A DNA stretch of 64,000 nt from a virus: IMG/VR virus record IMGVR_UViG_3300025853_000053, positions 1 through 64,000 of that record; one strand, written 5' to 3'. Both the position numbers and the translations under genes were made by a program. Below the pieces are notes generated by a model that saw nothing but the letters and a program-made list of their open reading frames with translations, searched no databases and was not told the DNA's origin. Every line of letters begins with the position of its first letter. Position 1 is the stretch's first letter. This document shows, piece by piece, positions 6,385 through 50,586 of this stretch.

Positions 6385-6705
6385 CTAAATTAAAATGGTC
6401 TGTACCATATCTGGTTGTGTCCGGTATGTAATTTGGGGATTTGGAGACATAATAACAGATATCCCATCTGAGAGGTTATGAAGGCTAGATATGTAATTCA
6501 TTACGTCGTCCCTTTTCTCTGGTGGAAACTTGTATGTTGACATTACATCATCAACTATCTTATCCAATGAATTTTCAAATTCTGCAGGATCGTGGAACTT
6601 AAAATACTTCTCATATTTCTTAACAAAATCCCTAATCATAGCCTGCTCTGGTTGGGTTAAGGATAGGTCAGACATAAAGTCGTCAAACTCTCTAATTAAT
6701 CTCAT
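6385..6705 (-). CDS. Hypothetical protein with capsid-targeting-like N-terminus
   Basis: 106 residues, beginning MRLIREFDDFMSDLSL. The R-x-F-x-x-F pattern matches the N-terminal tag shared by many proteins in this window. The body is helical and charged with no recognised domain. It diverges from the plus-strand gene at 6765 across a 59-base region that holds an AT-rich promoter-like box readable on both strands. Confidence 0.6.
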   Translation of the reverse strand: MRLIREFDDFMSDLSLTQPEQAMIRDFVKKYEKYFKFHDPAEFENSLDKIVDDVMSTYKFPPEKRDDVMNYISSLHNLSDGISVIMSPNPQITYRTQPDMVQTILI

Positions 6706-6730
6706 AGCCGAAACACTTATTGTTTTACCT

Positions 6731-6740
6731 GATATATATT
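6731..6740. promoter_or_regulatory. Shared divergent promoter-like box
   Basis: GATATATATT on plus, AATATATATC on minus. It lies 25 bases from the minus start at 6705 and 25 bases from the plus ATG at 6765, so the same near-palindromic box could serve both genes. Confidence 0.4.
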
Positions 6741-6764
6741 CAATAACACTAATTGATAATCGAA

Positions 6765-7112
6765 ATGTCTACAGAAGAAAGAGATACACAAATTGAGGAT
6801 CAAGTTGATTTCACACAAGAACAATCACCCGAACAGGAAGAACTTACACCAGAGGTAAATGATTTTGATGAAACTGGCGGAGAGGAAACAGGATCTGAAA
6901 TGCCTGAAATTCCTACAGATTCTACAGAAACTTCGGAGCTACCACAAATAGACCAGGCAGATTCTATTGAACAGACGGAGGAACCACATACACCACCAGT
7001 CCAAGAAACCCCAATTGAAATCAGTCCGGAACAGCCAATTCAGCAATCACAAGAAACCTCATCACCCGGTAGAGTAATGAGGTTTGAGGATTTCGTTAAT
7101 AACAGGGATTAA
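6765..7112 (+). CDS. Acidic low-complexity protein with C-terminal tag-like motif
   Basis: 115 residues from the ATG at 6765 (MSTEERDTQIEDQ). It is almost entirely Glu, Gln, Pro, Thr and Ser, hence disordered and very acidic. The last 15 residues change character: GRVMRFEDFVNNRD, a match to the F-x-x-F tag otherwise seen at N-termini here. This recalls scaffold/core proteins, which are acidic and carry a terminal interaction motif, but that role is inference. Rare plus-strand gene; its end overlaps the minus-strand gene at 7109 by 4 bases. Confidence 0.7.
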   Translation: MSTEERDTQIEDQVDFTQEQSPEQEELTPEVNDFDETGGEETGSEMPEIPTDSTETSELPQIDQADSIEQTEEPHTPPVQETPIEISPEQPIQQSQETSSPGRVMRFEDFVNNRD

Positions 7113-7288
7113 TCTTTTTCAGACCTACCTAGGTCTCTTCTTATTAAACCCCTCACGTAATGTGATATTGAAACCGGAGGTTCTCCGGAGGTTAAAGCTT
7201 TCTTAGAAATCTTTTTACTAAGTTCTTCCAGGTCTTCTGTTGATAACAGGACCTGGATTTTTTCTGTTTTATCTTCTCCTTTTGCCAT
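7109..7288 (-). CDS. Small ribbon-helix-helix-like protein
   Basis: 59 residues from the ATG at 7288. A strand-like segment EKIQVLLSTEDLEEL is followed by SISHYVRGLIRRDL, which resembles the strand plus R-x-L-I-R helix of MetJ/Arc/CopG DNA-binding proteins. If right, it would be a dimeric regulator. The box ending at 7317 lies 20 bases upstream. The assignment is tentative because of the small size. Confidence 0.6.
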   Translation of the reverse strand: MAKGEDKTEKIQVLLSTEDLEELSKKISKKALTSGEPPVSISHYVRGLIRRDLGRSEKD

Positions 7289-7308
7289 AGTTGGAATTTA
7301 TTTCTACT

Positions 7309-7317
7309 TTATATATT
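7309..7317 (-). promoter_or_regulatory. Candidate late-type promoter box (AATATATAA)
   Basis: 20 bases upstream of the ATG at 7288 and overlapping the stop of the upstream ATP-grasp gene; same core as the other boxes. Confidence 0.4.
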
Positions 7318-8807
7318 TAATCCTCTTGATCGGAAATCTCCATAAATTCAATTCCGCCGTAAGGATCTCCTTTAGCTGCCATTGGTGAATAGTCATTTAT
7401 ACTGTCAGAAACTACAAATGCTTTATGAGGGTTAACCATTACACCAAGTTTTTTCATAAGGGGTCTATTTGCTAAGAAAGGGGTACTTTTTGAAATCCTG
7501 TCGCTTGGAGCAACCTTAACTCCAGGAATCTTAACCCCGTTAAAAACAATATCCATTTTTACAATAGGTCTTACCTCTGTATCCCTGCCGATCTCGGTTT
7601 TGGTACGTCCAACAATTTTACCGCCCATTACGCTATCACCAATCTTCCAGGTGAGGTTATCACCATCCTCGGTTATTTCATCAGCATGAATTGACGAAGC
7701 AGACGATCCGTTACCCGTATCGAATTTAGCTACCATCTTACCGACCTGCGGGATCTCAATGGTTTCTAAGTAACCGACTTCGAGTTTAGCTTGGGACCAA
7801 TTATCTTTTTTCAAAATGTAATTAATAACATCATCAACAATAGGTTTTCCTATTGCTTGTGAAATACCGTCTGTTCCAGGAGACGAGTTTACTTCTAAGA
7901 TGTATGGTTTGTTGGTTTTAGAATCTATCATAATATCAACGCCACACCAGTGACACGAAACAGCATTTGCAGCTTCGCAAGCTATTTTTTCAATCTCCTC
8001 TGTTAATTCATATGAAGAAACTTCACCGCCTAAAGTATAATTAGTTCTGAAGTCCTTCTCAACTGCTTCTCTTTTCATTGCCCCAAGTACCTCACAGTTT
8101 TCAGCACCAGGATTTAAGGGATCAAATTTCTTTACGATTACTTGAACCCTAACATCAAAGTTCGAATCTATCTTCTCCTGTAAAAGGATTTCTCCATCAG
8201 GATCAAGCTTCTCGATAGTTTGGTAAACTGATTTAAGAGAAGCATATGAATCAACAATAGAAACCCCAATTCCTTGTGCTCCAGAAAGAAGTTTCATAAC
8301 AACCGGGAATTCACCCCCGACTTCTTCTAATGCCCTATCAAGACCTTCTATTCCATTAACCAGAGAATATCTTGGGATTGGAAGTCCTTCTTCCTCCAGA
8401 ACCTTTGAGGTAAGGTATTTACTTTCACAAATTTCAATGGATTCCAAAGTGTTGACACAAAAGTATCTAGCAGCTTCTAGATCTCTCATTATCTGCTTAG
8501 TGTAAGAGTTTGTAATTACCCCTCTTCTAGGAATTATAGCAGTAGTCTCAGGTTTAATTAAGATCTCTTTAGTCTCGTCACCATCAGAAAATTTAACAAT
8601 GTGTCCGTTGTATATTTTTTCCAACACCACATTGTTGACATTTACCACGTTACACGGTATGCCCATTTTTCCACATTCTTCAAGAAAAGATTTTGCAGTT
8701 TTGCTGGGCTTAGTCTCCCCGCTTAAAATAAGGATGTCAACCGTCCCGTTATCATTAGCTTCGTTAAGAAAAGATTCGAAATTAAGAGCAGGGGTTACCT
8801 TCTTCAT
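7317..8807 (-). CDS. RimK-type ATP-grasp ligase fused to RimB-like aspartyl protease, tagged
   Basis: 496 residues from the ATG at 8807. The first 16 carry the tag (NFESFLNE, then Ala). An ATP-grasp ligase follows at about 120-330, with VMKLLSGAQGIGVS and the metal-binding YILEVNSSPG. The C-terminal 140 residues match the RimK-associated retropepsin-like domain (PF05618 type), with KFDTGNGSSASS as the D-T-G site and NRPLMKKLGV. RimK adds glutamates to ribosomal protein S6 in some bacteria; RimB-type proteases trim such tails. A fused, head-delivered pair could edit host ribosomes, but the substrate is inference. Confidence 0.9.
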   Translation of the reverse strand: MKKVTPALNFESFLNEANDNGTVDILILSGETKPSKTAKSFLEECGKMGIPCNVVNVNNVVLEKIYNGHIVKFSDGDETKEILIKPETTAIIPRRGVITNSYTKQIMRDLEAARYFCVNTLESIEICESKYLTSKVLEEEGLPIPRYSLVNGIEGLDRALEEVGGEFPVVMKLLSGAQGIGVSIVDSYASLKSVYQTIEKLDPDGEILLQEKIDSNFDVRVQVIVKKFDPLNPGAENCEVLGAMKREAVEKDFRTNYTLGGEVSSYELTEEIEKIACEAANAVSCHWCGVDIMIDSKTNKPYILEVNSSPGTDGISQAIGKPIVDDVINYILKKDNWSQAKLEVGYLETIEIPQVGKMVAKFDTGNGSSASSIHADEITEDGDNLTWKIGDSVMGGKIVGRTKTEIGRDTEVRPIVKMDIVFNGVKIPGVKVAPSDRISKSTPFLANRPLMKKLGVMVNPHKAFVVSDSINDYSPMAAKGDPYGGIEFMEISDQED

Positions 8808-8825
8808 CAAGACAAATAATTTATC

Positions 8826-8834
8826 CTATATATC
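8826..8834 (-). promoter_or_regulatory. Candidate late-type promoter box (GATATATAG)
   Basis: 18 bases before the ATG at 8807, overlapping the end of the mutase gene. The spacing supports the ATG at 8807 as the start. Confidence 0.5.
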
Positions 8835-9941: not shown

Positions 9942-9942
9942 A

Positions 9943-10476: not shown

Positions 10477-10479
10477 TCT

Positions 10480-14112: not shown

Positions 14113-15093
14113 CTACATGGTAGATTTTATTGTATCTATGATAATTCTCTTGTCCACCGGATTAAGGGTTTTAGCCCATTTTCTAACGCTTTGTACATCG
14201 GTTGGGTAAGTTTGGGAATCTCCGCTAAAGTCTGATTTTCCCTCTTTATCATCACTATCAGATTGGCTTAAGGAGCCACTCTGTTTGGATTTTTCAGCGT
14301 CAAAAGCTTTATCGGCAAAAGAATTAAGGTCCTTAACCACCCTATCTACGCCTTGTTTAGCTTCTTTAGAAATATCCTTGGTGGGGATTTTATCTAAATT
14401 CCCCTTAATGTCCTCTTTCTTACCAATACCAAAATCGATTTTAGATCCATTAATATTGCTATTAAGGTCACTTGCCAAAGCAAGTATTAGATCATTATTT
14501 AGGGTTACCTTTTCGTTGTTGAATAGTTGGGAAAATCCATTACCAATCATTTCATAAAAAAGCTTAACCTGATCTCCAATGTCTTTTTTATACCCAGCAT
14601 ACGAGCTAGAGTCTGAAAGGGTATCTCCCAGACCCGACATAACTTCATCATAAGTTGTGTCTTGATCTAGGATAGTAAATTTTGATATTAAACCTCTTTC
14701 AATCTTACTAAATTCGTTCCATACTTGAGGCCAAGCTTCTTTCCAGAATGACTCTGGAGAAGCACTTTTATTTTCTATTACATTTTTACCTTCGAACTCA
14801 ACAGTAGGTAAAATATATGCTATTAGGGTTGGTAAAACCTTTTTTGAAATTCGATTGAAAGCCGCGTTAAAAATCGCACGGTCAGATTTTTTTTCGATAT
14901 TTCCTGAAGAAATCTCTTTAATGTTTTCAAGCCATGCATCAACTAAAGAAATAGCAATATCATACGGTTTGATGGATTCACCATTAATCTCAATCTCCTT
15001 ATCTAAGGGTAAGCCAGATCCGGACCAATTAACATTTAATGCTTCGTCAAGGGAAAGAAAGTACCTTTTAGAAAAGCTATGTATGTTTTCCAT
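14113..15093 (-). CDS. Tagged internal-protein candidate (326 aa)
   Basis: Begins MENIHSFSKRYFLSLDEAL, a variant of the tag with a possible cleavage after Glu17. The body is acidic and Ser/Lys-rich with a disordered stretch at about 260-300. I do not recognise a domain. It has its own box 16 bases upstream and a strong terminator just past the stop, so it is likely a single-gene late transcript. Confidence 0.65.
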   Translation of the reverse strand: MENIHSFSKRYFLSLDEALNVNWSGSGLPLDKEIEINGESIKPYDIAISLVDAWLENIKEISSGNIEKKSDRAIFNAAFNRISKKVLPTLIAYILPTVEFEGKNVIENKSASPESFWKEAWPQVWNEFSKIERGLISKFTILDQDTTYDEVMSGLGDTLSDSSSYAGYKKDIGDQVKLFYEMIGNGFSQLFNNEKVTLNNDLILALASDLNSNINGSKIDFGIGKKEDIKGNLDKIPTKDISKEAKQGVDRVVKDLNSFADKAFDAEKSKQSGSLSQSDSDDKEGKSDFSGDSQTYPTDVQSVRKWAKTLNPVDKRIIIDTIKSTM

Positions 15094-15109: not shown

Positions 15110-15118
15110 TTATATATC
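15110..15118 (-). promoter_or_regulatory. Candidate late-type promoter box (GATATATAA)
   Basis: Exact form of the consensus, 16 bases before the ATG at 15093; overlaps the end of the topoisomerase gene. Confidence 0.55.
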
Positions 15119-16538: not shown

Positions 16539-17618
16539 TTAAACATCATCTAGCTGGACAACGGCTAACTTAATAGATCTTTGCCCCTCGCTTTTAAGCT
16601 TATCTATTACCTCCTTGAGATCCCCAGAATTAGCAAAAACGATACAGCCAGCAGAATATGTGTTTACATTCCGTGAGGTTCCTCTTGAACTAGCTCTGTG
16701 TATATTGATGCCGAATTTCCCGGTTTCTGTGTTACCAGGGGAAAAAGTTTTAAAGTCAATTTCTCCAGGCCCATTGACAGGTTCGTAGCGGTCAACAGTA
16801 ATGTTACCGTTCTGTACAAAAGCTGGATATCCGTTGTGCTTTCCTATTTTGTAATCATAGACACCAGGTTGTACAATTGCTAACCCCTTAGGGTTAATAA
16901 TATCTTTTTTGCCGTGTGTCATATACCAGTTCCTAAACTGTTGGACCATAAACATTGGCCCGGGTACAGTGGTTGCCTTGAAAGCCCACACTTTATTATC
17001 CGACTCTGGAGACATTAGTACCAAAGCGTCAATAAAGTGGTTGTGAGATCTTTTCTTTTGGCTCAACTTATTCCTTAGGGCAACTAGTGTATATTTGTCC
17101 TTGTCGATCTTATTCCATTCTCCAGAAGATTCTAAAAATCCCTTGACCTTATTCCAAGTTAAACTATTAATTCCTCTATAGGTGTATGGAGAACTTGGCG
17201 GAAGTAAGGAAGCATTTGGTTCTATTGCTTCAAATGAGTTATCATTACTTCTAGCAATCTCTACGTTTCTTTCAACTCTTTCCCTTTCGGATCTGTTACC
17301 CCTGATATAAGATGCTATTTCATCAGATGTTTGTGGGGAATCTGAAACATTACCAGTCTCTATGTCAGTATTAGCTAATAGCCAATCCTCTAGCCCCCGT
17401 CCAACTTTAGTTGCCATTAAGAGGTCTAATCCGCTTATCTTACCTTTACCAAAAATTGTTCTCTTCTTTTGAGTTCCACCAGAATTTGTGGATTTGGAGG
17501 AAGATGAGGTTGGGGAATAAGCCTGATTAGTAGCTTGTTGTATAAACTCCCCAGCAGTTGAAGCTTCAGCCTCGTCTAATTTTTTCCTGAATTCACCAAA
17601 AGACTTTATCCTTCCCAT
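16539..17618 (-). CDS. L,D-transpeptidase-like protein with tag
   Basis: 359 residues. N-terminal MGRIKSFGEFRKKLDEAEA fits the tag with a cut after Glu16. The C-terminal part has INIHRASSRGTS followed by NTYSAGCIVFAN, i.e. the H...S-x-G-C pattern of the YkuD fold, whose Cys is the nucleophile in peptidoglycan cross-linking or cutting. A cell-wall role at entry or exit is plausible. The Ser/Thr-rich segment at about 25-50 looks like a linker. Confidence 0.8.
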   Translation of the reverse strand: MGRIKSFGEFRKKLDEAEASTAGEFIQQATNQAYSPTSSSSKSTNSGGTQKKRTIFGKGKISGLDLLMATKVGRGLEDWLLANTDIETGNVSDSPQTSDEIASYIRGNRSERERVERNVEIARSNDNSFEAIEPNASLLPPSSPYTYRGINSLTWNKVKGFLESSGEWNKIDKDKYTLVALRNKLSQKKRSHNHFIDALVLMSPESDNKVWAFKATTVPGPMFMVQQFRNWYMTHGKKDIINPKGLAIVQPGVYDYKIGKHNGYPAFVQNGNITVDRYEPVNGPGEIDFKTFSPGNTETGKFGINIHRASSRGTSRNVNTYSAGCIVFANSGDLKEVIDKLKSEGQRSIKLAVVQLDDV

Positions 17619-17636: not shown

Positions 17637-17645
17637 TTATATATC
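17637..17645 (-). promoter_or_regulatory. Candidate late-type promoter box (GATATATAA)
   Basis: 18 bases upstream of the ATG at 17618; the following bases GATAAATA resemble a second overlapping box. Confidence 0.55.
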
Positions 17646-22481: not shown

Positions 22482-23012
22482 TTACTCACCTGCTGGCTCA
22501 AAATAGATCTCCTCAATCTTGATTGGTAAAATCTTCGCCTCGTATCCCTTATCCTTAAGAGAAACTGGGATTCCTATAACATAATCCTTGCCCTCAATTG
22601 TTTCTACTCGATCAACAATGAATTCAGAATCAAAGAAAATTGTTCTTTTATCACCAAATCTGTTTAGATCAAAATCAAACTCTTCAGCATCTACATCTTT
22701 ATCAATAGATTTTCCGATAGTAGATTTATATTGTCTTGCAAGTCTTTCCCTTTCTTGGTTAATTATATCCTTTACGTAGTCTGGTGCCCCTTTACCCTGT
22801 GTGGGTACTTCTGCAATTGCTGTGATAGATTCAATCTGACCAGCCTCTTTTTGAGCCAAAAGGTCTCTTAATGTAGGGATTACCTCAGAATATTTAAGCT
22901 CCATTTCAGGCCTAACGTTTACGTTTTTTCTGAACTTGGACTCGTCATAAACAGGAGTTACTCCTTCGTAAATAGAATTAGCAAAATCCTCATATAGTTT
23001 TAAATTGTTCAT
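22482..23012 (-). CDS. Tagged internal-protein candidate (176 aa)
   Basis: Begins MNNLKLYEDFANSIYEGVT: L-Y-x-x-F then Glu16-Gly17, fitting the tag. The rest is acidic and soluble and I do not recognise a domain. Own promoter-like box 18 bases upstream and terminator 20 bases downstream. Confidence 0.65.
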   Translation of the reverse strand: MNNLKLYEDFANSIYEGVTPVYDESKFRKNVNVRPEMELKYSEVIPTLRDLLAQKEAGQIESITAIAEVPTQGKGAPDYVKDIINQERERLARQYKSTIGKSIDKDVDAEEFDFDLNRFGDKRTIFFDSEFIVDRVETIEGKDYVIGIPVSLKDKGYEAKILPIKIEEIYFEPAGE

Positions 23013-23030: not shown

Positions 23031-23039
23031 TTATATATC
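23031..23039 (-). promoter_or_regulatory. Candidate late-type promoter box (GATATATAA)
   Basis: 18 bases before the ATG at 23012, followed by a run of A on the minus strand. Confidence 0.55.
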
Positions 23040-23312
23040 TTCAAGGGTTGGGTGTTTAGTAATCTTTACCTTTAATGTACCACTGCCCTTAATTATTCTA
23101 TGCCAGGTACCAGCTTTAATAGATATTTCACCATTACATTTAATTGGAAGCTGGTTATCAAACTGAAACATCCAATCATTGGGTTCAAAAAATTGTATAG
23201 TTCTGTCCTCCCAATCCTGATGCCACTTTAATTCAACCGGATCTATCCCAGAGTCAAAGCATCGGATATACTCTGTGCTTGAAATCTTTTCCTCTGAAAA
23301 TGGCCTTACCAA
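23031..23312 (-). CDS. Small cupin-like protein
   Basis: 93 residues. The C-terminal part, SIKAGTWHRIIKGSGTLKVK, has the look of a small cupin strand (A-G-T-x-H-R). No ATG is available; a TTG at 23312 overlaps the stop of the upstream gene, which suggests reinitiation. Substrate unknown; the call is tentative. Confidence 0.5.
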   Translation of the reverse strand: MVRPFSEEKISSTEYIRCFDSGIDPVELKWHQDWEDRTIQFFEPNDWMFQFDNQLPIKCNGEISIKAGTWHRIIKGSGTLKVKITKHPTLEDI

Positions 23313-23863
23313 GGGTTAGAAGATTTAAGTCCCAAAAGTTTGTGATATCTATGAACATTACAAGACCAATATCTCGGTTTCCATTTTGGCCCAGGTTCAG
23401 TACAGCGGTGTCTTGCTCTAAATGACTTTGAAGCTTTTTTATCATCGTTTTTTATCCTTTGGCCAGGTTGTCCAAATCTTACCTTTACAACTCTTCCCTC
23501 ACCGTTTTTTGTGTAAACTGCAAATTTTCGAGTTTCCCCTGGAGTTCTAAAAGGCTTATTTAACTTTACCTTTCTTCCTTGGTACTCTTCCTCATTGATC
23601 TCAAATGGAACATCAAGAATAACCTCTTGACCCCTATAATTAGCTTTCTCACCAGCATCTGTGCTGATGAGGAAAACATCATCAAGTCCAAGATCAATCT
23701 CTTCGTTCAACCAAAGTATCCTAGATTCGTTTATTAGATCCAGCCAAGAATCTGATTCAATCCGGTAAACGCTTTCCATTAAGGAAAGGCCTTCGTCTAA
23801 ATGGTACTTAAGAGACTCGCTTATATTGTGGGATGTGTATGATGTAAAGCTCCTTAATTTCAT
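23306..23863 (-). CDS. Tag-like N-terminus, C-terminal RHxC/YWSC phage domain
   Basis: 185 residues starting MKLRSFTSYTSHN, a loose version of the tag, with LDEG at 22-25 as a possible cut site. The C-terminal part KSFRARHRCTEP...PRYWSC resembles a motif I recall in many large-phage proteins tied to head assembly or prohead proteases, possibly DUF5872-type. Two Cys and two His could bind zinc. The promoter-like box ends only 3 bases before the ATG, much closer than elsewhere. Confidence 0.65.
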   Translation of the reverse strand: MKLRSFTSYTSHNISESLKYHLDEGLSLMESVYRIESDSWLDLINESRILWLNEEIDLGLDDVFLISTDAGEKANYRGQEVILDVPFEINEEEYQGRKVKLNKPFRTPGETRKFAVYTKNGEGRVVKVRFGQPGQRIKNDDKKASKSFRARHRCTEPGPKWKPRYWSCNVHRYHKLLGLKSSNPW

Positions 23864-23866
23864 ACT

Positions 23867-23875
23867 TTATATATC
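23867..23875 (-). promoter_or_regulatory. GATATATAA box unusually close to a start
   Basis: Same box as elsewhere but 3 bases from the ATG at 23863 rather than 16-20. Either the message is nearly leaderless or the true start is not this ATG. Confidence 0.4.
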
Positions 23876-25958: not shown

Positions 25959-26375
25959 CTATTTTATTCTTTTCCAGGAGAAATCTGTATCTAGCCTAAA
26001 GTGCCCAAAGTAGTGGAACTTGTTATTCCACTCTTCAGGAGAAATTAGGCTTGCAAAAGTTTCTCCCTTTGAATTTTCATATAGATATATCTCTGATCCA
26101 ATATGTGCCTCAAAAGACATATTTGAATTCCATACTAGCTCATTATCCTCAAATTCCTGTAGAAGCTCAGAAATCTGATCCTTGATCTCCCCTGCTCTTT
26201 TGCCAAATTTATGGTTTGAGTGAACTGCAGCACGCTGTTTAAAAAGTGCTAAACCAGAAACATCTATCTTGGGGGATGATACTGATGTTGCATATGGCTT
26301 TAAAAAAGCATCATACTTTTCAGTATCTTCGTTGTATACAATGCTATCAGGAAGTTTTTTCTTTCCCTTCTTCAT
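25959..26375 (-). CDS. Hypothetical protein (138 aa)
   Basis: Starts MKKGKKKLPDSIVYNE, unrecognised. Its first 29 bases overlap the end of the adenylate kinase gene, so it is probably the next gene on that transcript. Confidence 0.55.
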   Translation of the reverse strand: MKKGKKKLPDSIVYNEDTEKYDAFLKPYATSVSSPKIDVSGLALFKQRAAVHSNHKFGKRAGEIKDQISELLQEFEDNELVWNSNMSFEAHIGSEIYLYENSKGETFASLISPEEWNNKFHYFGHFRLDTDFSWKRIK

Positions 26376-27006
26376 TCTCAGATTTATAAGGAATTCCTAT
26401 TTTGTCCAGCAACTGTTTATAAACTCTTTCAATTTTTTTAGATGCATCGACTTTTACAAGTTTCCTACTCTTTTTGTATTTTTTAACCAGAGGAAGTGTT
26501 TTTTCTTTGTATTCATTAAATCTTTTGGATATAATCTCTGGATCCTTATCATCGGCCCTATTTTCCTTTTCAGCCCTTTTCATAATCCTTTGTTTTGCCT
26601 TGTCCTCATCAAGTTCCAAATAGATCACGTGGCTAAGACCAACTCCTAACTTTCCTAGGAGTGAATCTAGCAATTTTATTTGCTTTATATTCCGTGGGAA
26701 TCCATCAATTATAACACCTCTTTCCAGATCAGCTTTGCCTAATGCTTTCCTAAGCATTCTTACCATTACCCTATCTGGAATAAACTCTCCCCTTTCAACT
26801 GTTTTCTTAAGCTCCTTATCCTTGGAGTTCCTAATTAATTCACCAGTAGAAATATGAGTGAAATCGTTTCTATCAACAAGCTTCTTTGAAATAGTCCCCT
26901 TTCCAGATCCCGGAGGTCCCAGAATAACAAGGATCTCTCCTTGTTTATCTGGGATTTCTCTTTCGTTTATAGAGATGAAATTTTCAAAGCTACGTACCTT
27001 ATCCAT
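26347..27006 (-). CDS. adk: Adenylate kinase with capsid-targeting-like extension
   Basis: 219 residues. P-loop GPPGSGKGT at 30-38, NMP site with IDGFPRN, and a lid arginine segment; all conserved in adenylate kinase, which interconverts ATP, AMP and ADP. The core would normally begin about 6 residues before the P-loop; here 22 extra residues include VRSFENFISINE followed by Arg, the tag with a cut possible after Glu15. It follows nrdA by 16 bases and lacks the late-type box, so it may be made with the nucleotide genes and also packaged. Confidence 0.9.
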   Translation of the reverse strand: MDKVRSFENFISINEREIPDKQGEILVILGPPGSGKGTISKKLVDRNDFTHISTGELIRNSKDKELKKTVERGEFIPDRVMVRMLRKALGKADLERGVIIDGFPRNIKQIKLLDSLLGKLGVGLSHVIYLELDEDKAKQRIMKRAEKENRADDKDPEIISKRFNEYKEKTLPLVKKYKKSRKLVKVDASKKIERVYKQLLDKIGIPYKSENEEGKEKTS

Positions 27007-32541: not shown

Positions 32542-32550
32542 GATATATAC
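32542..32550 (+). promoter_or_regulatory. Candidate promoter box on plus strand (GATATATAC)
   Basis: 9 bases before the plus-strand ATG at 32560, in the short divergent region facing the polymerase gene. One-base difference from the consensus. Confidence 0.4.
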
Positions 32551-32559: not shown

Positions 32560-32886
32560 ATGGATAGCAGGATCAAAAGTTTCGAGAATTTCCTTAATGA
32601 ATATTACATTTCAGCAGCCCCTGGAAGCGTGGTTGTTCCGGGTGAATGGTACAAGGATAACGTTAACTCAAGAAACTACAGACCTGCATATACACAAACA
32701 CCGCAGGTTGTTGATTCAATGTTCCAAAGTACCGACCTATACAACTACCTAGATACTTTAGCCGAGGAGGAAGAATTTACCAACATGGTGAAGAAAGGAG
32801 AGGCACCTAAGGACGTGATCAAGTATTTGAAAAAGAGGATACACGAGGAACTTTCACCAAACGCTCGTACTTCCGAAGAAAAATAA
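32560..32886 (+). CDS. Tagged protein preceding amidase-like frame
   Basis: 108 residues, beginning MDSRIKSFENFLNEYYISA, one of the clearest tags (cut possible after Glu14). The C-terminal half is acidic, helical, ending TSEEK before TAA at 32884. The next reading frame on this strand is open through the overlap region and starts without an ATG; slipping back one base at the A run before this stop would join them. See finding on a possible frameshift. Confidence 0.7.
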   Translation: MDSRIKSFENFLNEYYISAAPGSVVVPGEWYKDNVNSRNYRPAYTQTPQVVDSMFQSTDLYNYLDTLAEEEEFTNMVKKGEAPKDVIKYLKKRIHEELSPNARTSEEK

Positions 32887-34693: not shown

Positions 34694-35185
34694 TTATTTC
34701 TGCAAAGACTTCATCATCTCTTTGAAATCATCAAAGCTTTTAATAACACGATCTTTCTTTTTCTTCTTTTTGCCAGCCCCTTTTGCTGCTGGGGTTCCTA
34801 CTGTAAGAGAAGGGAACTTATCCCCAGATCCAACTGCTCCGTTGTAGAAATCTGCATTGGTACCACCAGATGATGGAGCTTCAACATTTCCCATTCCCTG
34901 TGTAGTACCTAGAGTAGCGAATGCTCCACCGCCGTCTCCAGCTGGTGCAGGTGCTCCACCGTCCATTTCTTTGAGTTCGTAGCCTTCACAACCACAACTT
35001 TTCATTTCTTCGTCCATTTGCCATTTTTCAACACAATAGTCGTTTTCGTCCAACCATTCCTTGATTTTAAGTTCCATAGCATCTGGAGTTTCCTGGTCTT
35101 CCATTACCGGAACATCTTCACAGCACAAACAAACTAGTGTTCGACCATTTGTAGAATTTCCAGTTGGATAATACATTGAATCCAT
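34694..35185 (-). CDS. Low-complexity protein with C-terminal tag-like motif
   Basis: 163 residues. N-terminal half has several Cys (CLCCED, SCGCEG), possibly metal-binding; then Gly/Ala/Pro/Ser-rich linker, a run of Lys (about 137-143), and a tail VIKSFDDFKEMMKSLQK that matches the tag of other proteins but at the C-terminus. I do not recognise the fold. It is expected to bind a head or scaffold component. Confidence 0.65.
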   Translation of the reverse strand: MDSMYYPTGNSTNGRTLVCLCCEDVPVMEDQETPDAMELKIKEWLDENDYCVEKWQMDEEMKSCGCEGYELKEMDGGAPAPAGDGGGAFATLGTTQGMGNVEAPSSGGTNADFYNGAVGSGDKFPSLTVGTPAAKGAGKKKKKKDRVIKSFDDFKEMMKSLQK

Positions 35186-35442: not shown

Positions 35443-35853
35443 TTATCTGTAGTCCTTCCTTAATTCCTTTCTCCGTAGATAATTAAAGAGGTATCTTAAT
35501 GCCTTTTTATATTCCTTACCGTTTCTGAAAGGTGATGGATAAGTCCTAATAGTATTTCCTTGTCCCTCTGGGGTTTCATTTGATTTGATTGGGTTATAGC
35601 GACGAACTACACCTGTTGGGTGTATAGTGTAAAATACCTCACCATATCCCCTTACCTCAGGCTGATTCTTTCTTTTGAATTTGAGTGTATTGTTGAGCTC
35701 TTGTTGGTCTGAGGTCTCATCAGAAAAGCCAAGCTCTAAGATATCCCTATATGCATCAGATTTTCTTATCTTGTCTAGGTCTATGCTTCTCCTTTCATCC
35801 TCAAGATATTCAGATTTAGGATCATACTTTTCAAATTCAAAAAGATTAATCAT
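35443..35853 (-). CDS. Hypothetical protein with weak tag-like start
   Basis: 136 residues; begins MINLFEFEKYDPKSEYLEDE, where F-x-F-x-x-Y recalls the tag less clearly. A middle segment FYTIHPTGVVRRYNP resembles a conserved phage segment that I recall without a function. Its ATG overlaps the upstream stop by 1 base. Confidence 0.6.
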   Translation of the reverse strand: MINLFEFEKYDPKSEYLEDERRSIDLDKIRKSDAYRDILELGFSDETSDQQELNNTLKFKRKNQPEVRGYGEVFYTIHPTGVVRRYNPIKSNETPEGQGNTIRTYPSPFRNGKEYKKALRYLFNYLRRKELRKDYR

Positions 35854-37374: not shown

Positions 37375-37914
37375 TTATCTACTGATTATGAACGTTCCCT
37401 TGTGGGATCCTTCTTGCATAGACCATTCTGGCCCTAAGAAAGAAAGCAAAACGGATTTTACCATCTCTTCATAGTTTTCAATATCCATATTATCCTGCAT
37501 TTCGTCAAATATACGAATTACTTTTGGATTTTTCTCAAGATAATTTAGTAAAGCTTTGGATACCTGCTCCAAGAATCTGCTTAAATCGTTATCTTTAAGA
37601 GTGAACTTAGCATCGTTCAGGTCAGGAATCTCTGATTTCTTAATAGCAATGTCCTCTATGATTTCAGGGGCAATCTCATTTACATTGAGAATTGCATAGG
37701 AATTTTTAGGTCCCTCCATTGTCTCATACTGTGAATATTTACCAACTACCAGCATAAATCCTTTTTGGGATCCATTCTCAAGTTCTAATTGAAAAAGGTA
37801 GTTATAAATATCACCATCCTTCACTAGCAAAAAAGGGAAGGTTCCAAACCCATCTCCTTCGTTGACAGAGCTAGATTTTAGGAAGTCTGAGAAATTCTGT
37901 ATTCTTTTTTCCAC
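37375..37914 (-). CDS. Tagged internal-protein candidate (179 aa)
   Basis: GTG start at 37914, then RIQNFSDFLKSSSVNEGDG: clear tag with Glu-Gly near 18-19. The body is acidic with alternating beta strands; unrecognised. The GTG is supported by a box 18 bases upstream and by the fit of the tag. Confidence 0.65.
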   Translation of the reverse strand: MEKRIQNFSDFLKSSSVNEGDGFGTFPFLLVKDGDIYNYLFQLELENGSQKGFMLVVGKYSQYETMEGPKNSYAILNVNEIAPEIIEDIAIKKSEIPDLNDAKFTLKDNDLSRFLEQVSKALLNYLEKNPKVIRIFDEMQDNMDIENYEEMVKSVLLSFLGPEWSMQEGSHKGTFIISR

Positions 37915-37932: not shown

Positions 37933-37941
37933 TTATATATC
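37933..37941 (-). promoter_or_regulatory. Candidate late-type promoter box (GATATATAA)
   Basis: 18 bases before the GTG at 37914; a second TATAAATA-like run lies between box and start. Confidence 0.55.
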
Positions 37942-39857: not shown

Positions 39858-40310
39858 TTAGTTCAATAGAATTTTTACGTTCCCCATGTCATCTGTGTTC
39901 TTAATAAGTACAGGCCCAAGTTGAATATCAACTCCAACAGTTACTTTTTGGTCCACTATAAGTTTTGCTAAACCTCTTATGATCGTTTCTATAAGAATTT
40001 TCGATCTTTCTTGTAATTCCATCTGATGTATTATAGCCAACTCTTCCAATAAAGATTCAACCTCGGGGGCTTCGTTTCGATTCTCCAATAGATGAAAAAC
40101 CTCTTTCTCAATTTCATAGTACTTTTGACCCTCCAGAAATACATTAGCACTTCCATCTTCCTCCCTCTCAATTACACCATTTAGACCAAGTACAGTGGAA
40201 AAAGAAATAAGTCCATCTTCTTCCCTAGCTACAAGTGATGGCGAATCCTTTTCCAGAAAAACCTCAAGTGCTCCGTAGATTAAATCATTATGTCTTTGAG
40301 TAAATTCCAT
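39858..40310 (-). CDS. Hypothetical protein (150 aa)
   Basis: Acidic, with a central helical stretch and beta ends; unrecognised. 4 bases from the ligase-fusion gene and 1-base overlap with the upstream nucleotidyltransferase, so part of the same operon. Confidence 0.55.
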   Translation of the reverse strand: MEFTQRHNDLIYGALEVFLEKDSPSLVAREEDGLISFSTVLGLNGVIEREEDGSANVFLEGQKYYEIEKEVFHLLENRNEAPEVESLLEELAIIHQMELQERSKILIETIIRGLAKLIVDQKVTVGVDIQLGPVLIKNTDDMGNVKILLN

Positions 40311-41221
40311 TATTTGATCTCTGTGGGGATTTCAAATCCTCCGTTTATTAAGTACCTTTCTAGATCATCCCGGATCTCATCCTTCTTGTCTGCATGAACA
40401 AAGTTTGGTGAAGAAACTATTTTCCAAGCATCCTCAAAAGATTTAAGATCTTCCTTCCTAATTCCGCTACCAAACATCATCTCAACAAACTCATCTGGAT
40501 CCCTAGTTACCAAAGTACTTTCACCTTTAACTGTTTTAGGGCTTTTGAGTCTTTTTGTAGCTCCTTTGAAGGACTTTCTATTTTTGAAAATACCGTCACT
40601 CAATCTTAGGGCATAAGAATAGAAATCTTCAAGTTCGCCATTCTCGTCCTTAGATATCACTTCCTTCAAAGCAGAAAGGATCGCTTGGAAAAGCCAGTTT
40701 CTGTGAGCTGATTTGTATTTACTTTCGTTCTTTCTGTAATCTGGGGAATAGAAAATAAACTTAGCCCAGTCCATATCAGAAATTGGAATTAGATCCAATT
40801 GAACTATACCATTTTCAGCATCACCCTCTATAGGCCAGCCAATTGAAAGAACGTTGATTCCCCTCATTAATTTCATATCGGGTACAAACCCAAGTTTGTT
40901 ATGTAGTGTCTCTGAAAGGTTCTTATATAAAGCTCCAAGAACATCATCCTCGGAAACACCTAATCTTTTCGAAAGAAACTTTTTATCTATCCCGAGGTCA
41001 ATATCTCCAGATGTGTCGTTTTGATCTTTCTTCTTACCGATGCTACCAATGATAAGGTATTCCTTGTCTACCTCACCACCACCAAGCAAAGGGAAAAGGA
41101 TTTCTTTGATAGACTCCATAGTTTTTGGAACCTCACTCTCCTTTATCCTTCTGGATTCTTTTATCGCCGCTCCGCCTTCAAATAACGAAACGTAATCCCC
41201 AAATTTTAGCACGTTTCTCAT
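40310..41221 (-). CDS. Tagged nucleotidyltransferase-fold protein
   Basis: 303 residues. MRNVLKFGDYVSLFEGGAA is a tag with cut possible after Glu15. The NTase core has IIGSIGKKK and SGDIDLGID (G-S, D-x-D) and a third Asp in VQLDLIPI. Nucleotide or other moiety transfer is likely; the substrate is unknown. Its ATG overlaps the upstream tagged gene's stop by 4 bases. Confidence 0.78.
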   Translation of the reverse strand: MRNVLKFGDYVSLFEGGAAIKESRRIKESEVPKTMESIKEILFPLLGGGEVDKEYLIIGSIGKKKDQNDTSGDIDLGIDKKFLSKRLGVSEDDVLGALYKNLSETLHNKLGFVPDMKLMRGINVLSIGWPIEGDAENGIVQLDLIPISDMDWAKFIFYSPDYRKNESKYKSAHRNWLFQAILSALKEVISKDENGELEDFYSYALRLSDGIFKNRKSFKGATKRLKSPKTVKGESTLVTRDPDEFVEMMFGSGIRKEDLKSFEDAWKIVSSPNFVHADKKDEIRDDLERYLINGGFEIPTEIK

Positions 41222-41706
41222 TTTTCTAAATCAAAATAGTCTGTGGCAGAAAAGACGTAATCCTTGTAAAGCTGTTGATCTCTTCCTTGTGGGTTGTTTA
41301 TATCAAAGTCTTTACCAAAAGTCGACTTACCCTTTCGGATAGCATCCCTATAGAAAGTCTCATATTCACCCCTTTTGTTTTTTCCAGAGGCTTTAATTGA
41401 ATCTCCCCATCTGGATAACACCTGGTCTTTGTTTTTACTTAGATCCTCAACATCCATGCTTGCTGCCTTACCAGAATCAAATAGATCAGCAATTCCCTGA
41501 CCCAATTTTTGCAGTCCCTCTACAGCACCTCTTACAAGTCTCTGTAAAGCCCCGCCTTCATCATAAGTCATTTGATAGATTTTCTCAGCGCCGGTTTCTG
41601 CCTCTATGCTTCTCCTTTTCTGCTTAATCCACTCAGTAGCAGAATATGGTTCTCTTCTTTCAACATTCTCGTTGAGAAAACTTTGAAAATCTTTTATGTT
41701 ATCCAT
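41218..41706 (-). CDS. Tagged internal-protein candidate (162 aa)
   Basis: ATG at 41706 gives MDNIKDFQSFLNENVERRE, the cleanest version of the tag (cut after Glu12). A longer ATG at 41718 is in frame, but GAGG six bases before the shorter start and the box 17 bases upstream favour 41706. Helical and basic; a disordered mid-section; unrecognised. Confidence 0.7.
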   Translation of the reverse strand: MDNIKDFQSFLNENVERREPYSATEWIKQKRRSIEAETGAEKIYQMTYDEGGALQRLVRGAVEGLQKLGQGIADLFDSGKAASMDVEDLSKNKDQVLSRWGDSIKASGKNKRGEYETFYRDAIRKGKSTFGKDFDINNPQGRDQQLYKDYVFSATDYFDLEK

Positions 41707-41723: not shown

Positions 41724-41732
41724 CTATATATC
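41724..41732 (-). promoter_or_regulatory. Candidate late-type promoter box (GATATATAG)
   Basis: 17 bases before the preferred ATG at 41706; drives the tagged gene, the NTase, the small protein and the ligase fusion. Confidence 0.5.
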
Positions 41733-46032: not shown

Positions 46033-46073
46033 GATTTTCTCTTAATTATTTTTTAAAATCCTTTATTTAATCT

Positions 46074-47287: not shown

Positions 47288-47288
47288 A

Positions 47289-48524
47289 TCAGAATATTCG
47301 ATAGTCTAGATCTTCCGAGAAACATTTATTACCCCACTTTTCTATTGCTGCTTTATATTCAGGCTCATCATGATCTCCATCGATAGACTGTCTCATTGCC
47401 AAGGCACCAGCTCTAGTTCCCTGTGGGTGTCCATGCATAGCACCGCCAACGTTTGCCATCCAATCGAAGCTTCCTATTGTTGTATTAATATACTCAACAA
47501 GCCCTGGATGCATACCACAGCTTAAAGCAGGAACAATGTTATAATTCCAAAGGGTTTGTAAGGTATCTTTTATTTCCTGCTCATCTTGGCTCATATAACC
47601 GCCGATCATTCCTGCATGGATCGAATCGACTCCAGACCACCCAGCGATCTTGCACAAAACCGGCCAGTAAATGTGGTTTGGCGCCCTACGGTCAGTAAAG
47701 AATTTATCTCCGCTCTTTTGGAAATGTATCCAGAGATTTGGATTTTGCTTTCTAATAGCACGATAAATTCCCAGGCCGCTCCACACGTTTATGTGTATTC
47801 CGTTCCCACCGTTATCTGCTACAAATTTTGCCCTTTCTAAGGCATATGGACTATCACCATTTATGCAAAAGCAATAAATTACGTCGGGCGCATTCTCTTT
47901 TAACCAAGATGAAATCAAAGGTACTCTTTCTTCAAGAGGGCAGTGGGAAGGGTTAGCAAGTAATTCATCCTCTTTGATGAAATTCACACCACCATAAACC
48001 ATTTCCTTCACAGCTTCGAGAAGAACAGAGGGAGACATACCAACCTTAGGTTTAACTATTCCACCTAAGAAAGGTCTTTGTTTTATACCATTAAATTTCC
48101 TCCATCCATCAATACCATAGGCCGGATTTAAAGAAAATGATCTCTCAGCATCCTCAGGCAAAGAAATGTCCAAGACATGACATTGTCTTACTTCCTCTAT
48201 GTCAACCTGACCACCAGCTATATGACAAAGTATTTGAGAGATCCCATCTTCTTCCAAATTAAGATTTGCTAGAGGAAAAGCTATCTCGATCTCGCCCTCT
48301 TTTAGCTGGGTAAGATCTTCTTCGTTTGCAAGAATAAAGCAACTGTGATTTTCAAACATCTCATCGGTTTCCCACTCGCTCCTATTATTCGGGTTACCTA
48401 TACTTTGACCTATAGCCAAATTCCAGGAAGCTTCCCTCAAAGAAGTTTTAGCTTCCAAAAAGTATTTGACTATAAAATACTGGGATGTATCAAAATCCGC
48501 CTTATTTTTAAAAATGCTTATCAT
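47289..48524 (-). CDS. RuBisCO-like protein (form IV type)
   Basis: 411 residues of the RuBisCO large subunit fold: GGIVKPKVGMSP (Lys158, Lys160), GGVNFIKEDELL with the carbamylated Lys184 and Asp186/Glu187 metal ligands, SIHAG, SCGMHPG and ANVGGAMHGHPQGT for phosphate binding. But loop 6 reads HAGMIGGYMSQ without the CO2-directing Lys, the E60 position is Gln40, and the N123 region is HIAGG. So not a carboxylase; a RuBisCO-like enolase, isomerase, epimerase or aldolase on a sugar phosphate is expected. Overlaps the cupin gene by 4 bases. Confidence 0.93.
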   Translation of the reverse strand: MISIFKNKADFDTSQYFIVKYFLEAKTSLREASWNLAIGQSIGNPNNRSEWETDEMFENHSCFILANEEDLTQLKEGEIEIAFPLANLNLEEDGISQILCHIAGGQVDIEEVRQCHVLDISLPEDAERSFSLNPAYGIDGWRKFNGIKQRPFLGGIVKPKVGMSPSVLLEAVKEMVYGGVNFIKEDELLANPSHCPLEERVPLISSWLKENAPDVIYCFCINGDSPYALERAKFVADNGGNGIHINVWSGLGIYRAIRKQNPNLWIHFQKSGDKFFTDRRAPNHIYWPVLCKIAGWSGVDSIHAGMIGGYMSQDEQEIKDTLQTLWNYNIVPALSCGMHPGLVEYINTTIGSFDWMANVGGAMHGHPQGTRAGALAMRQSIDGDHDEPEYKAAIEKWGNKCFSEDLDYRIF

Positions 48525-48844
48525 TCAATTACAAATTTATCACCAGGAACCGAGGGGGTCTTAACTATAAAAACTTCACAGTCTTCCAAAAATACGGGGT
48601 CAGCAATTTCATCTTTCCTTAGAATAAACACATCCCCCGAATTTAATTCCCGTCCTTGTATAATCATTTTACCCGATCTGAGGAAGTTTATTTCATCCGC
48701 TTCCTTATGGTAATGTTTTGGCCACTCTTCGCCCTTGAAGTGCTTTTTATAACAAATCTCAAAATCACTAGTTTGGTAAGCTACTGGGGAGAAATCTCCA
48801 GCATACCAACCTCCCTTCATATCTTCAATTCTATAAACTTCCAT
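48521..48844 (-). CDS. Cupin, sugar-isomerase-like
   Basis: 107 residues. KHYHKEADEINFLRSG is cupin motif 1 (His, His, Glu) and GDVFILRKDEIADPVF motif 2. Single-domain cupins of this sort act as sugar isomerases or epimerases or as sensors. Tightly placed between the nucleotidyltransferase (3 bases) and the RuBisCO-like gene (4-base overlap). Confidence 0.82.
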   Translation of the reverse strand: MEVYRIEDMKGGWYAGDFSPVAYQTSDFEICYKKHFKGEEWPKHYHKEADEINFLRSGKMIIQGRELNSGDVFILRKDEIADPVFLEDCEVFIVKTPSVPGDKFVIE

Positions 48845-48847
48845 AAA

Positions 48848-49579
48848 CTAAACCAACTTTAAAAATTTATCCAGGTCCTCTGGGGTACCTATCGGAAAGT
48901 GAAGGTTATAGAAGAAGGGCAATATTTTCTTTCCACTTTTTATCATGTAATTGTAGGTAGGTGCAACATAGAACTCATTATTGTACCGATCGTTTGCTGC
49001 TATCATTTGTTCCGCACTTTCCACAAAGTATTTACCATGCTTCCAAAAATGTAACCCGTTAGTAGCAATGTTGGAAATCACAATTTTTTCCTTCACATCA
49101 CAGACCTCTCCGTTTGGATCTAACTTAACATAGCTGTTCTTTTTAGAAGAGGAAAGAAAACATCCCAACAATCCATCACACCCCGTAGTTCTTGCAAAAT
49201 CTAAAATGAAGTCCAGATTGAAATCCAGAATAATCTGATCACAGTTAACAACAATGAGAGGCAGATCGTTATTGATCGACTGACTTGCAAAGAGAACCGT
49301 TGAAGCTGGTCCTTGTGTTAATGTTGGGGTTGAGAAAATCTCATACGATATTCCCATGTCTGATATATGGGAGTCAAATTCTGTAGGAGAAATATATTCC
49401 TCGTTTATCACAAATACAAAGTGTGCATCTTGATGATTTAGGTTTTTAATCACTGACCTAATCATCGTTTCTCCGCTGACGTCTATAAATGGTTTTATCT
49501 GTAGGTATCCAGCGTCGCTGAATCTCCTTCCAGCACCTCCGAGAGGAATAAGAATGTTAACCTTCTTTGATTGAGTCAT
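48848..49579 (-). CDS. Sugar-phosphate nucleotidyltransferase
   Basis: 243 residues. IPLGGAGRRFSDAGY is the G-G-x-G-x-R nucleotide loop, PFIDVSGETMI the following conserved region and VVNCDQIILD the metal Asp. It should join an NTP to a sugar-1-phosphate. First gene of the RuBisCO-like cassette; overlaps the RuvC-like gene by 23 bases. Confidence 0.88.
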   Translation of the reverse strand: MTQSKKVNILIPLGGAGRRFSDAGYLQIKPFIDVSGETMIRSVIKNLNHQDAHFVFVINEEYISPTEFDSHISDMGISYEIFSTPTLTQGPASTVLFASQSINNDLPLIVVNCDQIILDFNLDFILDFARTTGCDGLLGCFLSSSKKNSYVKLDPNGEVCDVKEKIVISNIATNGLHFWKHGKYFVESAEQMIAANDRYNNEFYVAPTYNYMIKSGKKILPFFYNLHFPIGTPEDLDKFLKLV

Positions 49580-50228
49580 ATAAAAATAAACATATCCAGG
49601 TCGAATCTATAATATCATCCAATGGCTTGTTTACATTACCGGAGGGAGTTATCCATTCGTCCTTATTTTCTTCTAAAATACTAGTGAAAGACCCTAAATT
49701 AGTTTCTGGAAATTTGTGATCAATAAGAGAATTATAAAGTTCGTGTTTTTTTGCATTTCCCTTAAAAGCGAACTTCTTGATAGAGGTGGGTGAATAAACA
49801 TAGAAATTATCGCTACCTGTATGATCAACTATTTTCTTACGGAGTAGAGCTGTGGCCATAGAGATATCAATCAAAGCATTACCATTAGAGGCAAAACTTA
49901 GTCCTTCCATAGCTACAACAATATCATCACCTGCACAGATATTTTCTACTTCAGACCAAAATTCATCAACGAGCTCCTGAAAATAATCTATCTTTATCCT
50001 TTCCCTTTCCGAGTAGTCTTCTGGCATTTTATCCTTTGACATAAACATAAGAACATAGTCTTCCGTTTTGTCTTCAGATAAAACATAGTAAGGTTTTTTA
50101 GCATTTTTCTTAAGTGATTCTGCAGTCCGGTCACTTCTTGTTAAAGACCCCCAAGTGAATTGATTATCCCTTAGAATACAGAATGCGGGTGAATTAAGGG
50201 AAAAGTCTATCCCAACTAATGTTTTCAA
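49557..50228 (-). CDS. RuvC-like Holliday junction resolvase
   Basis: 223 residues, TTG start at 50228. VGIDFSLNSPAFCIL (first Asp), VVAMEGLSFAS (Glu) and later YVYSPTSIKKFAF follow the RNase H fold of phage RuvC-like nucleases. The role would be junction resolution before packaging. Box 24 bases upstream. It leads into the sugar cassette on the same transcript. Confidence 0.8.
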   Translation of the reverse strand: MKTLVGIDFSLNSPAFCILRDNQFTWGSLTRSDRTAESLKKNAKKPYYVLSEDKTEDYVLMFMSKDKMPEDYSERERIKIDYFQELVDEFWSEVENICAGDDIVVAMEGLSFASNGNALIDISMATALLRKKIVDHTGSDNFYVYSPTSIKKFAFKGNAKKHELYNSLIDHKFPETNLGSFTSILEENKDEWITPSGNVNKPLDDIIDSTWICLFLYDSIKEG

Positions 50229-50252
50229 AATGTATGTGTTTTAGAATACAAG

Positions 50253-50261
50253 TTATATATC
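50253..50261 (-). promoter_or_regulatory. Candidate late-type promoter box (GATATATAA)
   Basis: 24 bases before the TTG at 50228 and just after a terminator, so it starts a new transcript for RuvC plus the RuBisCO-like cassette. Confidence 0.55.
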
Positions 50262-50271
50262 AACACAAAAA

Positions 50272-50293
50272 AGCTCCCCGTTTCCAGGGAGCT
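50272..50293 (-). terminator. Intrinsic terminator, last of three hairpins
   Basis: AGCTCCC and GGGAGCT pair round an 8-base loop, then a T run on the minus strand. Two more hairpins lie upstream on that strand (50298-50309, 50312-50332). Confidence 0.88.
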
Positions 50294-50311
50294 GAAACTC
50301 TTATGAGTCGG

Positions 50312-50332
50312 TCCTTGGATACTATCCAAGGA
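50312..50332 (-). other. Extra hairpin in 3' untranslated region
   Basis: A 9-base perfect stem TCCTTGGAT/ATCCAAGGA round 3 bases, right after the stop of the tagged gene at 50341 and before the terminator. No T run of its own. Confidence 0.7.
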
Positions 50333-50340
50333 GAAGTGGG

Positions 50341-50586
50341 TTACATATTAGGCTTTACAACCTCGCCTTTCTTTCCAGTATAGTTGTAATCATTAATGAG
50401 CTTGTCATAACACTTTTTCATCTGATCGTCAGTCAAGCAATCAACAATATCATTTAGCACCCTCTGATCGTTGCCGGATGCAGCTACTAAAAGATCTTTC
50501 ATATGTTGCTTTAGGTCATCCTCGCCGTACATTGGCTGACCATATTTCATTTCATTAATTTTGGTTAAATCTGAGAACTTCTTCAT
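50341..50586 (-). CDS. Small tagged protein (81 aa)
   Basis: MKKFSDLTKINEMKYGQ: a shorter tag with cut possible after Glu12. Remainder is helical, acidic; unrecognised. Box 20 bases upstream; 3' end followed by three hairpins. Confidence 0.65.
   Translation of the reverse strand: MKKFSDLTKINEMKYGQPMYGEDDLKQHMKDLLVAASGNDQRVLNDIVDCLTDDQMKKCYDKLINDYNYTGKKGEVVKPNM

Follow-up and report, generated by a model that had tools for sequence, protein, structure and literature searches.

The internal proteins of phage T4 begin with a capsid targeting sequence, a short N-terminal propeptide in which aromatic residues three apart are followed by an aliphatic-x-Glu cleavage site, and which precedes divergent mature bodies. 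Mutagenesis of one of these proteins, IPIII, is reported to assign packaging to residues 4 and 7 and processing to residues 8 and 10, with Asp at position 10 stopping processing but not targeting (PMC9026906). Another, IPI, is described as having a mature form of 76 residues (PMC3012670); because its 288-base gene encodes 95 amino acids, simple arithmetic places the cut after residue 19, behind a long spacer. In T-even phages, many ip genes are reported to have been found through the signal sequence, with at least 10 listed, and the three internal proteins of T4 are credited with blocking GmrSD restriction (PMC12373910). An N-terminal signal of the phage P1 protein DarB is likewise reported to direct both DarB and a reporter to the capsid interior (PMC9024508). 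Among SPN3US and phiKZ-like phages, several propeptides are described as exceeding 100 residues, and only that of gp45, with 20 residues, matches the T4 length (PMC5694885). Here we report that a tag resembling the T4 sequence stands at the start of at least ten proteins with unrelated bodies encoded in a 64,000-nucleotide stretch of viral DNA (positions 1 to 64,000 of IMG/VR record IMGVR_UViG_3300025853_000053; hereafter, the window).

The window lies within a 78,835-base virus record that is itself a fragment, and its genes with phage profiles include those for a helicase and a primase. It probably derives from a member of a branch of large T4-like phages, because homologues of its RimK-like gene occupy 38 viral-contig loci on records that range from 15 to 430 kb, and because its helicase is closest (44%) to that of LR756500, a 462-kb uncultured phage. 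An earlier note on this DNA had proposed that at least twelve of the encoded proteins share an F/Y-x-x-F start followed by a Glu, in front of unrelated bodies. All twelve N-termini indeed exist as open frames with the starts described (Table 1); two of these starts (23863 and 41221) were placed further downstream by the gene caller, and the upstream positions are supported because homologues carry tags. Ten have the full [FY]xx[FY] pair (FESF, FGEF, YEDF, FTSY, FENF, FENF, FSDF, FGDY, FQSF, and FDDF), but 15093 (FSKRYF) and 50586 (FSDL) are variants that match the pattern weakly. The Glu is present in all but one case: [LIV]xE occurs within residues 9-20 of 11 of the 12 tagged proteins, by residue 19 in each, the exception being 6705, compared with 9 of the record's 66 remaining genes (p=2.3e-7), an enrichment that is partly circular because the starts had been picked partly on Glu. 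From residue 26 on, the bodies show no kinship, with a best blastp E of 0.15 and no phmmer match at 0.1.

We consider it very probable that this shared start is a T4-type capsid targeting sequence, one half of which docks the protein and the other half of which is cut by a protease, leading to retention in the head and probably to delivery. As the earlier note held, this is the best explanation, because the two-half layout matches the IPIII mutagenesis and the variable spacer matches that of IPI. Under this reading, the tagged genes would be expressed late from promoters with the octamer GATATATA, and the first half of the tag, [ILV]xx[FY]xx[FY], would dock each protein onto the scaffold core of a head under construction, with capsid assembly as the next step. 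The second half, aliphatic-x-Glu, a few residues behind at variable distance, would be cut after the Glu by a phage gp21-type protease that would process the major capsid protein, too, at SLNE/SAG (here and below, a slash marks a predicted cut unless noted). The freed protein would stay in the head as it fills with DNA, and the cargo would probably be delivered together with that DNA. What the sequences show is the motif, its return in front of unrelated bodies, its promoter link and, in relatives, the protease with a similar predicted capsid site; the other steps are modelled on T4. Packaging and cleavage of the tag are likely. Injection is less certain and rests on the T4 precedent; in calling the set injected, as opposed to head-packaged, the earlier note went beyond the evidence.

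A loose pattern ([FYW]xx[FYW][LIVMAF] in residues 3-18) matched 9 of the 78 genes of the window's record, compared with a mean of 3.4 (maximum 10) for shuffled residues and 2.2 (maximum 7) for internal windows. Because this excess is only modest, the regular expression was dropped for a nine-column matrix trained on ten window tags, with 15093 and 50586 excluded from training. The matrix was applied to a 373-kb relative (G016), a 230-kb relative (G009), and a 150-kb sample of LR756500. With orthologues of the tagged window proteins set aside first, 26 of 417 G016 genes scored at least 8 bits (internal windows predict 3.1 and shuffled residues 2.6) and 17 scored at least 10 bits (1.2 and 0.5 expected). 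The corresponding figures for G009 were 11 of 220 genes (2.0 and 2.1) and 5 genes (0.8 and 0.5). In the LR756500 sample, with orthologues kept in and internal windows as the sole control, 15 of 145 genes reached 8 bits versus 0.53 expected. The tests that discriminate are these matrix scans of other genomes and the independent promoter association described below. The bodies behind these matches are again diverse, with no relation at E 0.01 among the 15 in LR756500 and a single related pair among the 32 in G016 at 8 bits.

The same controls bear on the idea that the shared starts reflect a bias in translation starts or codons, the starts being A/T-rich and mostly lacking a Shine-Dalgarno sequence, with no protein signal at all. 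By a simple score, many called window genes do lack a Shine-Dalgarno sequence, but most of the signal is lost on shuffling residues or on moving to internal windows. Furthermore, the spacers vary by whole codons as the aromatic residues stay constant, and one family carries its core near the C-terminus. We give this idea almost no credence.

Somewhat more plausible, though still improbable, is that the tag docks proteins to another late structure, such as a cellular site of replication or assembly, the Glu being incidental. Such docking would suit the metabolic nature of some cargo (adenylate kinase), the family whose aromatic core sits close to the C-terminus and is followed by no cut site, and the absence of a site in 6705. 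An incidental Glu is difficult to reconcile, however, with the finding that x-x-Glu of the right kind is far commoner behind the tag than in other genes. When all genes are counted, aliphatic- or aromatic-x-Glu follows 24 of 32 matrix matches in G016 versus 95 of 395 other genes (p=1e-8), and 10 of 18 in G009 versus 53 of 214 (p=0.010). It would also leave unexplained why the Glu site of the tag resembles the capsid site predicted for those phages, and why the promoter octamer also precedes the head protease gene and some head and tail genes. In G016, the first 30 residues of proteins contain [LIV]NE[AGS] sites at four times the density found elsewhere.

A targeting sequence of the T4 type implies a gp21-type protease, and 14 of 38 relative records encode a Peptidase S77 domain that scores above the Pfam cut-off. 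When 20 records were searched with the G016 capsid protein, full-length homologues came from exactly the 14 records that bear S77, and all 14 (several of them near copies) have the predicted propeptide site SLNE/SAGAY, which occupies residues 40-48 in G016. The head genes of G016 match phrog_213 (portal, 2.5e-56), phrog_207 (protease, 4.6e-37), and phrog_138 (capsid protein, 3.4e-34). Its protease has no PDB sequence match at E 0.01, and its identity rests on Pfam S77 together with phrog_207. This protein also holds the most [LIV]NE[AGS] sites among the called proteins of G016, 5 of 41, as expected for a self-processing core. In T4, gp23 is shortened from 521 to 456 residues by removal of a 65-residue N-terminal part that ends in SFLTE, and the start of the propeptide in the relatives aligns with gp23. 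Capsid and tag sites are alike within each phage: SFLTE/A and FIAE/A in T4, AFLSE/A and NYLEE/A in Mosig, and ELYE/N in the capsid protein with FLLE/N or A in the tags of LR756500, all of them predicted except those of T4. Inspection by eye shows tag-like starts on the genes that immediately follow the capsid gene as well (MTLKFKEWNELNE/A and MLNFKDFKMNE/I). One S77 protease of 656 amino acids (L058, 10884-12854) has a second half made, by eye, of YSxYLAENxD-like repeats, giving the look of a protease-scaffold fusion.

The tagged genes are further linked by their promoters. The octamer GATATATA, which resembles the T4 late promoter TATAAATA, lies at most 50 bases upstream of 9 of the 12 tagged genes and of 3 of the 59 other window genes (p=5.7e-7), and in seven tagged genes its distance to the start is 25-29 bases. 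Among G016 genes outside the training set, the octamer precedes, at 6 bits, 17 of 37 matching genes versus 33 of 380 others (p=4e-8, or 1.6e-7 with a related pair counted once). Across 19 records, it occurs 15-25 bases before an ATG with T in the middle of codon 4 at 223 places, compared with 23 for the reversed pattern. It is visible in the printed 50 bases at 31 of 38 RimK-like loci and precedes the head protease gene in two relatives. Among 24 listed G016 genes that bear the promoter and score below 6 by the matrix, ten were scanned; one is head-closure-like, three are tail-fibre-like, one is an HNH-type endonuclease, and five have no family. At window gene 23863, and also in ten cases from G016 and five from G009, the octamer is placed exactly 12 bases ahead of the called start. 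This spacing leaves four bases before the start codon, so the late messages would be leaderless or nearly so if the starts are right.

Table 1. Candidate tags, late-promoter-like octamers, and a related C-terminal core in the window
Feature	Position	Gene	Strand	Basis or remark
Tag MKKVTPALNFESFLNE/A, RimK-like ATP-grasp ligase	8760..8807	7317-8807	(-)	Pfam RimK 1.7e-32
Variant tag MENIHSFSKRYFLSLDE/A, no family	15043..15093	14113-15093	(-)	230-kb relative's homologue starts MNSIIKFSDYILEE
Tag MGRIKSFGEFRKKLDE/A, L,D-transpeptidase-fold protein	17571..17618	16539-17618	(-)	Invariant residues and predicted fold
Tag MNNLKLYEDFANSIYE/G, no family	22965..23012	22482-23012	(-)	Homologue MKHLLEFDSYSPMDEAE
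Tag MKLRSFTSYTSHNISE/S, phrog_7595	23816..23863	23306-23863	(-)	G009 homologue MKILNFGEFRDQISEN
Tag MDKVRSFENFISINE/R, adenylate kinase	26962..27006	26347-27006	(-)	Pfam ADK 4e-36 from residue 28
Tag MDSRIKSFENFLNE/Y	32560..32601	32560-32886	(+)	Homologue MTPRIKSFKKFLSES
Tag VEKRIQNFSDFLKSSSVNE/G, GTG start	37858..37914	37375-37914	(-)	Homologue MTKIATFGQFVSNMNES
Tag MRNVLKFGDYVSLFE/G, nucleotidyltransferase-fold protein	41177..41221	40310-41221	(-)	21/21 loci and predicted fold
Tag MDNIKDFQSFLNE/N	41668..41706	41218-41706	(-)	Homologues MIMKSFTEFTNNVSEAS, MTPRLKNFSMFSEAI
Variant tag MKKFSDLTKINE/M, FxxL replaces FxxF	50551..50586	50341-50586	(-)	
Docking half only, MRLIREFDDFM, no clear cut site	6673..6705	6385-6705	(-)	Homologues MKKILEFEDFLENDLELDEAQ, MYKKKILEFDDFVSNLSLSEV
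Capsid N-arm-like protein, tag-like core RVIKSFDDF near C-terminus	34694..35185		(-)	
GATATATA, late-promoter-like	8827..8834		(-)	27 bases before 8807
GATATATA	15111..15118		(-)	25 bases before 15093
GATATATA	17638..17645		(-)	27 bases before 17618
GATATATA	23032..23039		(-)	27 bases before 23012
GATATATA	23868..23875		(-)	12 bases before 23863
GATATATA	32542..32549		(+)	18 bases before 32560
GATATATA	37934..37941		(-)	27 bases before 37914
GATATATA	41725..41732		(-)	26 bases before 41706
GATATATA	50608..50615		(-)	29 bases before 50586

Tags are well kept within several cargo families. A Pfam scan of ten of the twelve tagged proteins (all but 50586 and 6705) gave clear matches to RimK ATP-grasp and adenylate kinase, one match below the cut-off for 32560, and none for the other seven. 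In the RimK-like family, [FY]xx[FY][LI]NE/[AS] is kept at 38 of 38 viral-contig loci, some of which are near copies. The adenylate kinases have [FY]xx[FY] and INE at 12 of 12 loci with a spacer of 0, 2, or 5 residues (SFENFINE, SFENFISINE, and NFESFVNKDDINE), and the nucleotidyltransferase family has an aromatic pair and L[FN]E/GG at 21 of 21 homologous loci. The G016 homologue of 23863 keeps SISE/G and has lost the aromatic pair. Untagged versions also exist: the adenylate kinases of phage pT24 and LR756504 are enzyme from their first residues, seven L,D-transpeptidase homologues of other phages have no tag at the first Met of the frame, and G009 has one tagged and one untagged L,D-transpeptidase. 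Thus, the same kind of enzyme can be tagged or untagged.

Two proteins were assigned with the help of structural models. By its invariant residues (His307, Ser322, Gly324, and Cys325 in 13 sequences) and its predicted fold, 17618 is an L,D-transpeptidase, and 41221 has, in its model, a polymerase-beta-type nucleotidyltransferase fold. The best VIA-align matches have Z 8.6 (rmsd 3.4, 124 aligned) for 17618 and Z 10.0 (rmsd 4.1, 189 aligned) for 41221, a range in which a common arrangement may be the sole shared feature. The 50 matches listed for 17618 are L,D-transpeptidases or proteins that we presume to be fold relatives (Csd6, Pgp2, YcbB, and DpaA). Foldseek was weak on both models, with best E values of 1.7e-3 and 9.8e-3, respectively. 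Both draw the tag as a helix in a low-confidence start; pLDDT is below 50 at residues 1-95 of 17618, and in 41221 the stretch below 50 runs to residue 16, immediately after the predicted cut, with confidence from about residue 17.

Particle data from a related system touch on the RimK-like ligase. The YerA41 protein related to it (35.9% over 77%) is annotated as a 'structural protein', and we take it, from gene order, to be g112, a 'ribosomal protein modification protein' reported among the proteins detected in YerA41 particles, which are also said to have held many replication and transcription proteins (PMC7354516). This finding supports a RimK-type enzyme as possible head cargo, albeit an untagged one amid many non-structural proteins.

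Several observations weigh against a T4-type targeting sequence. The gp21-like protease that the earlier note suggested looking for elsewhere in the genome turned up in relatives but not in the window's own 78.8-kb record, a fragment, which gave no Peptidase S77 match. In the sequence alignment, residue 43 of the G016 capsid protein does not fall on residue 65 of T4 gp23, and the capsid cut site is a prediction because the alignment fails to superpose the two sites. Three of the twelve tagged genes lack an exact GATATATA promoter. In G009, the promoter precedes 7 of 19 matching genes versus 20 of 201 others (p=0.0035), but four of the seven are paralogues, and we dropped this link as support because p rises to 0.084 (4 of 16) once they count once. 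Similarly, NE behind the tag in G009 is not significantly enriched (2 of 18 versus 10 of 214, p=0.24). Adenylate kinase is unexpected as head cargo, and the YerA41 relative of the RimK-like protein has no aromatic tag, which rules out for that protein the expectation that YerA41 uses the same tag.

The window matrix also fares less well on some other phages. Among 225 called genes of T4, in a ranking that left out positions 50001-61999 and alt (split by a tile border), ipIII, ipII, and ipI rank 13-15, and gp24, 67, 23, 68, 22, and 21 rank from 36 to 217. A tagged RimK ranks 6th of 67 in a Mosig sample scored with no control. In a Lak-C1 sample, none of 39 genes reached 8 bits (0.7 expected), and the idea that all relatives with this capsid type carry tags failed for this sample.

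Relative to T4, the window's branch shares the overall layout of the targeting sequence and differs in its extent. T4 has three internal proteins and Alt, whereas 32 of 427 called genes in G016 score at least 8 bits (about 3 of 417 expected), and the cargo of the window's branch includes several recognizable enzymes. The window tags mostly have [ILV] three residues before the first aromatic residue, the residue preceding the Glu is often Asn, and a C-terminal form of the tag may exist. The basic charge typical of T4 internal proteins was not seen in G016, where the median pI is 5.39 for tagged and 5.31 for untagged proteins. As with the T-even repertoires, the genes can be recognized through a shared signal, but these tags occur in T4-like phages of a distant branch, where several bodies are enzymes. 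For P1 DarB, one protein is described, with its signal inside the first 30 residues; the likeness lies in an N-terminal signal that directs a protein to the capsid. The ejection proteins of SPN3US and phiKZ-like phages are similar in that giant heads hold many packaged proteins, several of them cut by the prohead protease, but several of their propeptides far exceed the tag in length. The accessible open-licence literature yielded no description of a tag set of this kind in this phage branch, although one may still be published, and neither 'capsid targeting' nor 'internal protein' occurs in a 2026 jumbo-phage review.

With regard to the injection step only, it is also conceivable, although unlikely, that tagged proteins enter the prohead and are then degraded or leave it, undelivered. 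The tagged genes directly behind the capsid gene occupy the place expected for core proteins, and T4 gp22, gp67, and gp68 are reported to be cut to short fragments (PMC5694885). However, several of the cargo proteins are conserved enzymes, and the transpeptidase and nucleotidyltransferase families have many invariant residues, both of which would be odd for scaffold. If delivery does follow packaging, then the virus may bring a ready-made enzyme toolkit into the next cell. With our confidence about evenly balanced, we propose that one branch of T4-like phages, with large and giant members, might have made the tag a general loading code, with promoter, tag, and cut site on dozens of unrelated proteins per genome. 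The head would then deliver a kit that includes a protein-modifying RimK-like ligase, adenylate kinase, L,D-transpeptidase, and nucleotidyltransferase, with the ligase in the part that Alt plays in T4, and another protein may be retained there by a C-terminal tag that is left uncut. The set of proteins that a phage injects is usually unknown without cultivation; if the tag proves reliable, the sequence of an uncultivated large phage could reveal which proteins it packages, and specific enzymes would be indicated for the first minutes of infection. The likeness between tag and capsid sites makes the claim directly testable.

Additional features of the window and its relatives concern other forms of the tag. 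The protein at 34694-35185 belongs to a family of about 160 amino acids that resembles the N-arm of the mature capsid protein (..GSGDKFPSL..) and ends, after a Lys-rich stretch, with a tag-like core. Beyond the window copy, this core reads IQSFSDFI, IQNFSDFV, LKSYLEF, IVSYLDFI, and VGSYLDFL in five other distinct homologues; homologues occur in L110, L111, L112, L114, and L117. The gene at 35443-35853 (-) may be an extra tagged gene, its start (MINLFEFEKYD) resembling by eye that of a tagged G016 gene (L062 13774; MRNIKSFKDYN).

Some tags are near duplicates of one another. In LR756500 (L177, 23383-26694), two nearby genes with unrelated bodies have identical 39 bases from the ATG through the Glu codon of the predicted cut site, and a third nearby gene differs at one base across those 39, the similarity before and behind being chance-like. 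Spread of the tag at the DNA level is suggestive only, because codon usage alone would make all codons agree, given equal residues, with a probability of 0.03. In G009, three adjacent tagged paralogues (L082, 7039-9936) start with MKHLQSFSLFEARKTS, and a fourth relative lies at L082 18793.

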